This document shows, piece after piece, positions 389 through 3,099 of a stretch of 46,218 nt of DNA. The DNA is from Bacteroidales bacterium. GTDB taxonomy: Bacteria; Bacteroidota; Bacteroidia; Bacteroidales; UBA3824. Position 1 is the stretch's first letter, and each line of letters opens with the position of its first letter. Under the pieces are notes generated by a model. That model was not told the origin of the DNA. It saw only the letters and a list, made by a program, of their open reading frames with translations, and made no database searches. The position numbers were made by a program, and so were the translations under genes. The DNA is taken from the NCBI GenBank assembly GCA_024401025.1, contig JAKSLV010000001.1:70643-116860 (forward strand), in the 5' to 3' direction.

Positions 389-1762
389 TTACAAATCTCC
401 CAATTCGTCAAAGACAAAATCATCAGCCGATTCTTGTGATGTATGCTTAAGAAACATACAATAATAAATGGGCATATAGAGGATTTTATCTTTCTCGAAT
501 ACTTTTCCTGAATTGCTGAATACAATAGCACGAGGAATATTGTATGATTCGTTGCTCACAAAACGGTCGAGTGCGGAATGTACGGTGTAATCTTTCCCTG
601 ATTTTATCTCCAACGGCAAAGCCGCAAGATTTTCATAATCATCTATCAGGAAATCAACCTCGCCCTGTTTTTTGTTGTCGTAATAATACAAATGGAATCC
701 ATGGGCATTAAGTTCCTGAGCCACTACAGATTCGTAAACAGTGCCAAGATTTATGCTGCGGATGTCTTGCATTATAGCATTGGCATTGTTTCCGTAAAGG
801 ATATTTGTGAGTATTCCCACGTCGTTGAGATAGAATTTCAAGAAATTCTTTATCTCTGATTCCTTGAGCGGAAACTTTGGATTGCTTATGGAATTCACTT
901 CCAATGCAACTCCCGAGGCGCTAAGATACTCAAATTCATCAATATAATCTGAATAATCCTTGCCTTTCTTTTCTTCAATACTCTTGTATACCACACGCTT
1001 TTTCTTGTTTTCAAGATTGCTTGGTATCAAATCATAGACACGCCGTATCTTGAGTTTTCGCTCGGTGTCATATTGCGAGGCATCAATTTTATAAAGCTCA
1101 TAAATCTGGTTCTGTACTTCCCTAACTCTTTGCAAGTGTCTGTCTCTCAAAAACATATTGACTGACTCGGGCATTCCTCCCACCAACAGGTAATATTGGA
1201 AACGCTTCATGATATTCTCGTGGAGCGCATCGTGCAAAGATTCGTGATTTACAAAGTGCTGATGCATACTTTCAATAACCTCTTCTCCGCAATTGACAGC
1301 CCACAGGAATTCCTCAAAATCAAGGGGATACATTTTTTTTACTGTTACACTTCCTATAGGCACAGATGGGGTTTCGGCCAAGGCGATTCCAAGCTGAGAG
1401 CCACTGGCTATAAAACGGAAACGTTTCTCCTGATTCAGGAACTTCAACATTGTCAGCAACTTGGGATAGCACTGGATCTCGTCAAGGAATACCAATGTGT
1501 CCTTGAAACTGCCAAGTTTGTTTTTAGCAAACATTGCAAGCTGTATATACAAATCCTGACACGTATTTACTCCGTCGAAAACACGTGGGCCTTCGATGTC
1601 TTCCTTCAAATTGATTTCAACAAAATTCTTGAACAATTTGGATCCAACATATCTGATGATATACGATTTGCCGATTTGACGGGCCCCGTCAACAAGTAAA
1701 ATTTTGTTGGGCTGGTCCTTTAGAAACGACTCTAAAACAGGTGTGAATTTTCGTCTAAGCAT
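389..1762 (-). CDS. AAA ATPase with DUF4143-type C-terminal domain
   Basis: 457 residues. Walker A GARQIGKS is at about residues 26-33 and Walker B LVFLDEIQ at about 90-96, followed by a sensor-like FIASGSQ near 118. The C-terminal part has the PD-(D/E)xK-like pattern EVD (368-370) and EIK (385-387), with a preceding conserved Glu (YESVVAQE, near 343-350), as in the DUF4143 region of this family. These ATPases are common and often present in many copies in Bacteroidales; their biological role is not established, though nuclease-like or toxin/antitoxin and mobile roles have been suggested. Start ATG at 1760-1762; a second Met is not available nearby. It is a single gene, convergent with rnr. 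Four phased repeats lie upstream (1819-1921) and may control it. The family call is firm, the function is unknown. Confidence 0.88.
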   Translation of the reverse strand: MLRRKFTPVLESFLKDQPNKILLVDGARQIGKSYIIRYVGSKLFKNFVEINLKEDIEGPRVFDGVNTCQDLYIQLAMFAKNKLGSFKDTLVFLDEIQCYPKLLTMLKFLNQEKRFRFIASGSQLGIALAETPSVPIGSVTVKKMYPLDFEEFLWAVNCGEEVIESMHQHFVNHESLHDALHENIMKRFQYYLLVGGMPESVNMFLRDRHLQRVREVQNQIYELYKIDASQYDTERKLKIRRVYDLIPSNLENKKKRVVYKSIEEKKGKDYSDYIDEFEYLSASGVALEVNSISNPKFPLKESEIKNFLKFYLNDVGILTNILYGNNANAIMQDIRSINLGTVYESVVAQELNAHGFHLYYYDNKKQGEVDFLIDDYENLAALPLEIKSGKDYTVHSALDRFVSNESYNIPRAIVFSNSGKVFEKDKILYMPIYYCMFLKHTSQESADDFVFDELGDL

Positions 1763-2120: not shown

Positions 2121-2152
2121 TTTGCAAAATATAAAAATATATTGTATCTTTG
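2121..2152 (+). promoter_or_regulatory. Bacteroidota-type promoter of the structured RNA
   Basis: A -33 TTTG (2121-2124) and a -7 box TATCTTTG (2145-2152) are separated by exactly 20 bases, matching the primary sigma factor consensus TTTG-N19-21-TAnnTTTG of Bacteroides. The expected transcription start is near 2157-2160, at the first hairpin of the RNA element. No protein gene follows closely: mraZ starts almost 480 bases downstream. Confidence 0.7.
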
Positions 2153-2156
2153 TGTC

Positions 2157-2396
2157 ATCAAAATAATCAAATGATGATTTTGATGGTTGATTTTTGAATG
2201 ACAGATGATAAATAAATAAGCGGCCACACGGCTGGGGAGTCAGCCAGGTCCGCAATCCGGTTAGATATGGAAACCGGACAGGTATTAGGAAATGCGGCGT
2301 TACGAAGCCGGAACATTGGTAGTCGCATTTTCCTTCTACTTAACAAAACGAGCAAAACAGTTAAGTCTGTTTTGCTAAGTAGAAGATACTTTTTTT
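2157..2396 (+). ncRNA. Candidate structured non-coding RNA, unknown family
   Basis: About 240 bases between a good promoter and a terminator hairpin, with a series of helices and no credible protein. Helices: 2156-2164 with 2177-2185 (9 bp, with an inner ATCA/TGAT stem); 2220-2225 with 2247-2253 (one bulged T) capping an inner GGCTG/CAGCC stem with GGGAGT loop (2230-2245); 2256-2262 with 2272-2278 (TCCGGTT/AACCGGA); 2288-2296 with 2324-2333 (GGAAATGCG paired with CGCATTTTCC, one bulge), enclosing a 27-base inner region; then the terminator. It is G+C rich in the middle of A+T-rich flanks. I compared it by eye with cobalamin, SAM, TPP, c-di-GMP and THF riboswitches, SRP RNA, tmRNA and RNase P and found no match. 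It may be a free sRNA or a leader of the mraZ operon. Confidence 0.55.
2333..2396 (+). terminator. Intrinsic terminator at the end of the structured RNA
   Basis: CTTCTACTT (2333-2341) pairs with AAGTAGAAG (2377-2385) and AGCAAAACAG (2351-2360) pairs with CTGTTTTGCT (2367-2376); a 9-base bulge separates the two helices on the 5' side. The loop is TTAAGT. A run of seven T follows at 2390-2396. Confidence 0.75.
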
Positions 2397-2414
2397 ATAA
2401 TTATTCTGTGAAAG

Positions 2415-2467
2415 GGTCCTTGGCGTGCTCCGGAGTTTATCTCCCGAGCCCCGGACCTATTTTTTTT
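2415..2467 (+). terminator. Second terminator-like hairpin upstream of mraZ
   Basis: GGTCC (2415-2419) pairs with GGACC (2453-2457) and CTCCGGAG (2428-2435) with CTCCCGAG (2441-2448, one mismatch), with a TTTAT loop. Eight T follow at 2460-2467. It lies only 30 bases beyond the first terminator. It could be a back-up terminator or part of a longer RNA leader. Confidence 0.6.
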
Positions 2468-2556
2468 GTATATATGTCATCCGGATGTGAGCGTGTCAGT
2501 TACTCGTTTTTCAAATCTCTTATTATCAGTATCTTAAAAAATATTTTTCAAAAAAG

Positions 2557-2580
2557 TGGGAAAAAGTGGGGCAAAGTGGT
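2557..2580 (+). promoter_or_regulatory. MraZ operator: three TGGG-type boxes, 10-bp period
   Basis: TGGG at 2557-2560, TGGG at 2567-2570 and TGGT at 2577-2580 recur every 10 bases inside the pattern AAAGTGGG. MraZ from several bacteria binds tandem TGGG-containing repeats about 10 bp apart just upstream of its own gene and represses the dcw cluster. Position, period and sequence all fit, so this is very likely the autoregulatory site. It covers the -33 region of the mraZ promoter. Confidence 0.8.
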
Positions 2581-2602
2581 GCAATTTGTCAAAAATTATA
2601 TC

Positions 2603-2610
2603 TAATTTTG
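2603..2610 (+). promoter_or_regulatory. -7 box of the mraZ/dcw promoter
   Basis: TAATTTTG fits TAnnTTTG exactly and would start transcription near 2616, about 19 bases before the mraZ ATG. No TTTG lies at the ideal spacing (the nearest, 2585-2588, leaves 14 bases), so the promoter may depend on the region of the MraZ boxes. Confidence 0.5.
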
Positions 2611-2634: not shown

Positions 2635-3099
2635 ATGTGCATTTTTACTGGAGATTTTCAAATAAAACTTGACTCAAAGGGTCGCTTCCAGTTCCCTTCT
2701 GCCTTCATGGAGCAGATCGGGGCGGGGGAGGACAGCTCTGTGCGTACCTTTGTGCTAAAGAAGGATCTCTACGAGAAATGCCTGACTATTTACACTTTAG
2801 GCAGCTGGCAGTCTCGCATAGAGGCTGTAAAAGCGCACCTCAACCCATTCAACCGTCAGCACAACGCCTTCCTCCGCGAATTCTTCAAGGATACCGCCGA
2901 GGTGGAGCTGGATGCAAGCAACAGACTGCTGGTTCCGAAGCGCCTGTTGCTCCAGACGGATTTGAAGAGTGATATCTTTGTTCTCGGCCTCGACGACAAG
3001 ATCGAGGTCTGGGACACTGATACTTACGAACAGAGCCGCCCGTCGGCTGAGGACTTTGCGCAGATGGCCGCCGATTTTCTGGGTAGTATTAATATTTAA
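2635..3099 (+). CDS. mraZ: Transcriptional regulator MraZ
   Basis: 154 residues, the usual size. Two SpoVT/AbrB-type DNA-binding repeats are visible: the first around GDFQIKLDSKGRFQFPSAF (residues 5-23), the second around AEVELDASNRLLVPKRLL (near 89-106). MraZ forms a ring-like oligomer that binds direct repeats upstream of its gene and tunes expression of the division and cell wall cluster. The start ATG at 2635 places the first AbrB strand at the N-terminus, as in homologues. It is the first gene of the dcw run, and three TGGG-type boxes lie 55-78 bases upstream of its start. rsmH follows after 14 bases. Confidence 0.95.
   Translation: MCIFTGDFQIKLDSKGRFQFPSAFMEQIGAGEDSSVRTFVLKKDLYEKCLTIYTLGSWQSRIEAVKAHLNPFNRQHNAFLREFFKDTAEVELDASNRLLVPKRLLLQTDLKSDIFVLGLDDKIEVWDTDTYEQSRPSAEDFAQMAADFLGSINI

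Follow-up and report, generated by a model that had tools for sequence, protein, structure and literature searches.

A predicted structured RNA, probably an independent gene, directly upstream of mraZ in Bacteroidales

Background

The closest published case to the locus analyzed here is UpsM (RSs0682) of Rhodobacter sphaeroides, which the part of PMC5089854 drawn on here describes as an abundant 206-nt RNA located before mraZ and ending in a strong terminator. According to the same part of that paper, mraZ has no transcription start of its own in this organism and is fed by about 1% read-through, and the RNA undergoes Hfq- and RNase E-dependent processing, with cleavage under stress (PMC5089854).

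No report of the RNA described below was present among the matches listed in the open-access literature on mraZ, sRNA and dcw. Another candidate structured RNA placed in the mraZ/mraW neighbourhood is the mraW RNA motif. This motif (RF01746) is listed for Actinomycetales as likely cis-regulatory in the section of PMC2864571 used here, which also lists several Bacteroidetes RNAs. A third point of comparison is provided by the Bacteroides intergenic sRNAs of the GibS type, which, as far as the relevant part of PMC7366714 goes, combine a primary-sigma promoter, an intergenic RNA and a Rho-independent terminator; the word mraZ does not occur in the main text of that paper.

In this article, we describe a putative structured RNA of ~310 bases, for which a promoter and a terminator of its own are predicted, that lies just upstream of the cell-division gene cluster in a 46,218-nt stretch of DNA (referred to as the window; its own genome is G000). 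Measured against the description of UpsM in the cited part of PMC5089854, the likeness consists in a multi-hairpin RNA of a few hundred bases placed directly upstream of mraZ on the same strand, in a strong intrinsic terminator at its end (recognized here from sequence and fold, the strict pattern scan being silent) and in confinement to one lineage. The two differ in that UpsM shares the mraZ promoter, whereas mraZ is here preceded by a conserved -7 element and MraZ-type boxes; moreover, UpsM belongs to Rhodobacteraceae, i.e., to another phylum, and the two RNAs are likened by description and not by sequence. The mraW RNA motif, to judge from the entry in PMC2864571, differs in being likely cis-regulatory and in belonging to Actinomycetales, while Rfam gives no match above threshold in the window; the Bacteroidetes RNAs of the same paper that have accessions should be covered by the Rfam comparison. 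The GibS-type sRNAs are set beside the present RNA by gene anatomy, as given in the part of PMC7366714 used, and are compared in sequence via Rfam only.

Results and discussion

Signals at both ends of the unit

The features discussed in this section and the following ones are:

2121..2152, + strand: RNA promoter, TTTG-N20-TATCTTTG, agreeing with the primary-sigma consensus of Bacteroidota, start predicted near 2157
2155..2186, + strand: 5' hairpin H0, with 3 of 14 pairs changed on both sides among four distinct sequences; also in G012
2220..2253, + strand: helix A, with an outer stem, inner GGCTGG/TCAGCC and loop GGAG, from fold and covariation
2256..2278, + strand: helix B, TCCGGTT/AACCGGA, from fold and covariation
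2279..2287, + strand: single-stranded junction CAGGTATTA, in which CAGGT is conserved and 6 of 9 bases are identical to G011
2288..2333, + strand: helix C, GGAAATGCGGC/GTCGCATTTTCC, loop motif GCCGGAA-ATTGG, from fold and comparison
2333..2396, + strand: hairpin D and T7 run (stem 2333-2385, T7 2390-2396), from the fold
2415..2467, + strand: T2, a conserved hairpin followed by a T-run (stem 2415-2457, T8 2460-2467), presumed intrinsic terminator
2553..2582, + strand: triple MraZ-type box (AAAGTGKN3)3, belonging to the mraZ unit and not to the RNA
2603..2610, + strand: -7 element TAATTTTG of the mraZ promoter, without an obvious TTTG at the -33 spacing
2635..3099, + strand: mraZ, first gene of the division cluster (Pfam MraZ, 1.4e-18)

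Read directly from the sequence, TTTG occupies positions 2121-2124 and is followed, after 20 bases, by TATCTTTG at 2145-2152, which bears out the full-consensus Bacteroidota promoter of the original prediction. The arrangement agrees with the consensus given for Bacteroidota promoters in the part of PMC7366714 consulted, and it is of the primary-sigma type that an independent intergenic sRNA of this phylum is expected to have. The pattern TTTG-N19-21-TANNTTTG is found five times in the window (both strands), where 30 shuffles average 0.57, and it is rare in shuffles of the surrounding 300 bases, arising on the + strand in 9 of 500. Among the 19 genomes of the genus examined, all of which have mraZ, exactly five have the RNA promoter pattern in the 600 bases before this gene.

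The segment 2157-2480 folds at -107.2 kcal/mol (z = -6.0), and none of 100 shuffles is as low. The reverse strand of 2121-2480 also has a low z of -7.45 because inverted repeats fold on either strand; we assign the RNA to the + strand because the promoter and the T-runs point there. We infer the activity of the promoter and of the terminator from these sequence signals.

At the 3' end, a two-part terminator with a T-run had been proposed. There are indeed two hairpins, each with a T-run, but hairpin D, which is terminator-like in the window, does not have this character in the relatives, where 17 bases separate its stem from the T-run; a T-run adjacent to the stem is found in the relatives for T2 only. 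The 12 pairs listed for hairpin D include three that change on both sides, one broken in the relatives and one broken in the window. The predicted folding energy of T2 is -21.8 to -23.1 kcal/mol, and a T-run comes after it in all five genomes that have all or part of the unit, including G012. A strict scan for terminator patterns flagged neither hairpin (its sole site lies on the - strand, vs 1.4 in shuffles), because T2 has internal bulges and the T-run of D starts four bases past the stem; both were consequently called from folds and T-runs. By sequence and fold, and unflagged by the scan, T2 supplies the Rho-independent terminator of its own that characterizes an independent sRNA in Bacteroidota.

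Helices, loops and a possible alternative pairing

Single-sequence folds of the window and of its relatives give the same core helices. The original prediction of at least four helices holds in full as to their places, including the inner GGCTG/CAGCC and the pairing of GGAAATGCGGC with GTCGCATTTTCC (2288-2333); the first of them, described as a 9 bp helix at 2156-2185, stands as to location and not as to length, 13 of 14 pairs being formed in this region.

In helix A, changes on both sides affect four of the five outer pairs and one of the six inner pairs, and the GGAG loop is identical across all four copies. Helix B, whose arms lie at 2256-2262 and 2272-2278, has eight pairs, of which two are changed on both sides, one on one side and one is broken in the window. 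In helix C, 10 of the 11 pairs are invariant and one varies on one side; it is therefore conserved in sequence, without covariation support. The motifs kept in the relatives are the GGAG loop, the CAGGU junction and the GCCGGAA-AUUGG loop. Identity between the window and G011 amounts to 42 of 60 paired columns and 37 of 68 unpaired columns. A closing stem formed by the two linkers was rejected, since linker-linker pairing lacks significance (scores at least as high arose in 12, 9 and 7 of 60 shuffles).

In both the window and G011, the 5' arm of helix B (2256-2262) and the helix C loop (2306-2312) are complementary to each other, and the predicted short-arm energies of pairing with the C loop vs the arm's own partner are similar in the window (-9.5 vs -9.4 kcal/mol) and favour the loop in G011 (-11.7 vs -9.9 kcal/mol). 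One could take this for a new RNA class with a built-in switch, whose core would alternate between two structures, of which one is a pseudoknot; the trigger could then be a ligand, a protein or a partner RNA, and the switch could signal the state of the cell beside the division cluster. We regard this model as quite unlikely; the alternative pairing may be trivial because CCGG is self-complementary.

Covariation among the relatives

We trained a covariance model on G011, G008 and G002 alone, i.e., with the window excluded, and it finds the window with 64.6 bits (E = 3.2e-16, 56 kb searched). In the core alignment, which has three distinct rows, 98.9% of cells are paired and 7 of 30 pairs carry double changes. 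Four of the five measures, the covariation score among them, are not attained by any of 500 shuffles, and the number of pair types is attained by 16 of 500; when the partners are slid by 1 to 3 columns, pairing falls to 28-48%. This alignment was fitted to the structure of the relatives, which favours pairing, and the window folded alone yields the same core helices. For H0, 98.2% of cells are paired and the five measures are reached by 4 to 18 of 500 shuffles. A plain MAFFT alignment of the whole RNA, evaluated with RNAalifold, has 96 pairs and 12 double changes with an unfavourable covariation term of +2.19, which we attribute to the misplacement of some arms by the plain alignment.

The helices are conserved in the relatives, and the covariation check proposed together with the original prediction was passed on a small set of sequences, with double changes in 7 of 30 pairs of the core, 3 of 14 of H0 and 3 of 12 of hairpin D. 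Because three of the four full copies are nearly identical, the covariation comes from about two independent lineages.

Fold energy was also compared for 340 bases taken at the same distance upstream of mraZ. The z scores are -3.5 to -6.8 in the four full carriers and -2.2 in G012; among genomes that do not carry the RNA, low values are found as well (L053 -5.3, L048 -4.4, L049 -4.3, L055 -3.5, L056 -3.1). Since some genomes without the RNA score as low, fold energy alone is no proof of an RNA. In G014 and G017 (L048 and L049) a different low-energy, hairpin-rich stretch precedes mraZ (z about -4.4), unrelated by eye.

Sequence conservation in and around the RNA

The core does not maintain a reading frame between relatives, as a protein gene would be expected to do: four separate one-base indels distinguish the window from G008, and a protein-coding core was rejected on these grounds, in agreement with the original statement that no protein fits. 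Substitutions in the same comparison are distributed over the three phases as 19, 14 and 11 of 42, 42 and 40 positions, with no strong codon bias.

Between the window and its relatives, identity in the core is 56-59% by MAFFT and about 65% when guided by structure, and in hairpin D 43-45%; the stretches used for comparison reach 63-68% (AT-rich DNA before the promoter) and 68-70% (mraZ). The letters of the RNA are thus no better kept than the surroundings. G011 and G008 are 97% identical in the RNA (core 99%), compared to 78% in mraZ, 80% in the spacer, 80% over 200 bases upstream and 88% over 900 bases after mraZ. Upstream of the RNA, the G011 intergenic block is nearer to G008 than to G012 in four of five sixty-column segments (the exception being 69% for G008 against 86% for G012), and the genes flanking the block on both sides are nearer to G012. 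We conclude that the intergenic block was likely exchanged between lineages, which accounts for part of the similarity between the RNAs of G011 and G008. Within the block, segments across the RNA are 93-100% identical (88% where T2 enters the spacer) vs 69-92% elsewhere.

The ~135 AT-rich bases at 1986-2120 of the window, immediately before the promoter, share 63-68% identity with the four relatives that have all or part of the unit, including TTAACATTATTTAACTTTT; sequence further upstream than 1986 is well below this, at 19-35%. The divergent gene upstream of the RNA encodes an AAA_14/DUF4143 ATPase in the window (389-1762) and a sigma-70 family (ECF-like) factor in G011 (L072 1115-1684) and G008 (L083 449-1084), i.e., the upstream neighbour differs between genomes while the RNA and mraZ stay. 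Four TTTGTCACTTTTTCNGAAAA-like repeats, spaced 32, 22 and 33 bases apart, lie at 1816-1934, before the start of the AAA_14/DUF4143 gene, which is on the minus strand; on that strand they read GAAAAAGTGACA, loosely like MraZ boxes.

Carriers of the RNA

The full unit is found upstream of mraZ in 4 of the 19 genus genomes (G000, G011, G008 and G002). In G012 the promoter, H0 and T2 are kept at the same place and everything between them is missing, including the core, which is therefore dispensable in that genome; MraZ of G012 is identical to that of G011 over the aligned part. Inspected by eye, the other 14 of the 19 genomes show no resemblance to the unit, and none has this promoter pattern within 600 bases of mraZ. 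When the 19 MraZ proteins are placed in a tree, G012, G011, G008 and G002 form one group (93/94), and G000 branches from an open node that it shares with seven genomes without the RNA, which makes a single carrier clade possible and no more than that.

The arrangement in G012, along with the good conservation of T2, is what would be expected if the unit were an insulator, in which strong upstream transcription and its termination would protect the MraZ-controlled promoter and the core would be of little importance. Insulation would require neither the double changes of the core nor its kept motifs, and the RNA promoter pattern is absent in 14 of the 19 genus genomes; we consider this explanation very unlikely.

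A covariance-model search of the 19 genus genomes, in which at most 150 candidate places were scored per genome and several of the genomes are incomplete, gave four strong matches and three weak ones (E 0.005 to 0.19). A refined model was applied at three taxonomic levels, to 393 genomes sampled from the order, 395 from the class and 395 from the phylum; these samples overlap, and 8 candidates per genome were scored under stricter filters that lose weak matches. The order sample yielded the window's own genome and three weak matches (E 0.016 to 0.054), the class sample no match, and the phylum sample one weak match (E 0.0044); a relative elsewhere that has diverged further may have escaped these searches. 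All seven weak matches (L061-L066 and L096, E 0.0044 to 0.187 per genome) were judged after alignment to be due to chance. One or more helices are lost in L062, L065, L066 and L096, and pairing is poor in L063 and L064. In L061 most pairs are retained, with little sequence in common, and the match lies inside a 409-residue reading frame on the opposite strand. L063 and L065 are coding-like by eye.

Searching contigs of species genomes with a 19-base pattern located 19 stretches, of which three fit the model (L072, L081 and L083, corresponding to G011, G002 and G008). These carriers are Bacteroidales metagenome assemblies, one of them from sheep reticulum. The other 16 stretches fail the model, and L068 (Bacteroidales) is coding-like by eye. 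The same pattern has no occurrence in viral contigs, and distant blastn found no match to the RNA in phage and plasmid collections. A blast search of 60 genomes with the RNA gave matches in 29 (E up to 0.1, own genome included). Beyond its own, those on the contig of mraZ belong to G008, G002, G011 and G012; the remaining matches in the genus are short and on contigs other than that of mraZ, and those outside the genus are short. The window's own genome (75% complete) has one copy. As far as these sequence searches reach, the RNA appears narrowly distributed.

Comparison with known RNA families

The prediction that the RNA belongs to no known family is upheld by Rfam 15 (4227 families), which gives no match in the window at gathering thresholds; a permissive Rfam search returned six chance-level matches with E up to 10 and no credible family. 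No tRNA or tmRNA was found in the window. RNase P RNA is typically encoded by one gene per genome. In G000 this gene (RF00010) is located at G000:C31:4588-4940, away from the mraZ site, and RNase P RNA (bact_a) at the mraZ site was accordingly rejected; five of the seven other genus genomes searched also have it elsewhere, with none found in G008 and G002 (both incomplete). 6S RNA folds into one rod, with a large bubble in its centre and its two ends closing the structure. The RNA described here is instead predicted to form several hairpins, enclosed in the MFE structure by weak linker pairing, and the Rfam 6S families have no match in the window; the search with RF00013 was silent, but so was the Bacteroides control.

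These comparisons bear on the proposal that we are dealing with a diverged housekeeping RNA (RNase P RNA, 6S, SRP or tmRNA) or else with foldable sequence that arose by chance or is mobile or decaying. RNase P RNA does adjoin mraZ in Pelagibacter, the core is missing in G012, and fold energies before mraZ are equally low in some genomes that lack the RNA. Against it stand the location of RNase P RNA elsewhere, in G000 as in five of seven others, the lack of Rfam or tmRNA matches in the window, the single copy in the 75% complete genome, the position of all full copies before mraZ and the covariation. We consider the proposal highly improbable in either version.

A separate promoter for mraZ

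The MraZ site is published as (AAAGTGKN3)3, in the part of PMC5282649 considered. Three GTG (or ATG) with a 10-base period precede mraZ in all 19 genus genomes, whether or not they have the RNA, and the -7 element reads TAATTTTG in 18 of them and TACTTTTA in one. Between T2 and the boxes, identity with the window drops to 25-32% (75 columns, gaps counted), compared to 66-67% in T2 on one side of this spacer and 69-75% in the stretch of boxes and promoter on the other. The RNA unit and the box-promoter stretch of mraZ thus appear from these comparisons to be two conserved units side by side.

This layout bears on the possibility of an UpsM-like 5' leader, where the RNA would be the terminated front of an mraZ-ftsZ transcript and read-through at D and T2 would set the expression of the division genes. 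The position, orientation and terminator arrangement are the same as those reported for UpsM of R. sphaeroides in the part of PMC5089854 used, the RNA is always upstream of mraZ where it is found, and hairpin D with its T-run could form an attenuator together with the second terminator. UpsM is, however, marked by the absence of a separate start for mraZ and by dependence on read-through, while the sequence of all 19 genomes here has the -7 element and the triple box; in addition, hairpin D is not terminator-like in the relatives and the spacer between T2 and mraZ is unconserved. We therefore find a leader unlikely. Of the two functions originally envisaged for the RNA, a leader controlling mraZ-ftsZ is disfavoured by the promoter elements of mraZ, given that 14 of the 19 genomes have them without the RNA promoter, and a free RNA is favoured, because mraZ has its own -7 element and boxes throughout, T2 closes the unit and the spacer is not conserved.

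Conclusions

The most probable explanation, in our judgment, is that 2121-2467 is an independent noncoding RNA gene with its own promoter and its own terminator T2, mraZ being driven separately. RNA polymerase would start near 2157 at a full-consensus housekeeping promoter and would mostly stop at T2, producing an RNA of ~310 nt composed of H0, an AT-rich linker, the core helices A, B and C, hairpin D and T2; mraZ would be transcribed from its own MraZ-controlled promoter. We infer, in line with other intergenic sRNAs, that the RNA might act in trans, via base-pairing or protein binding, with the exposed GGAG loop, the CAGGU junction and the GCCGGAA-AUUGG loop as candidate contact sites. The unit, its helices, a core that has no conserved reading frame and the recurrence before mraZ are shown by comparison of the predicted features among genomes.

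The finding places a candidate structured RNA that has no Rfam match at the start of a gene cluster highly conserved among bacteria, and within a single genus the same mraZ promoter is accompanied by the complete unit, by a unit stripped of its core or by no unit at all. As UpsM belongs to a distant phylum, the two cases together suggest that an RNA has been gained more than once at the position upstream of mraZ. If the RNA acts in trans, it could link cell division to another process.
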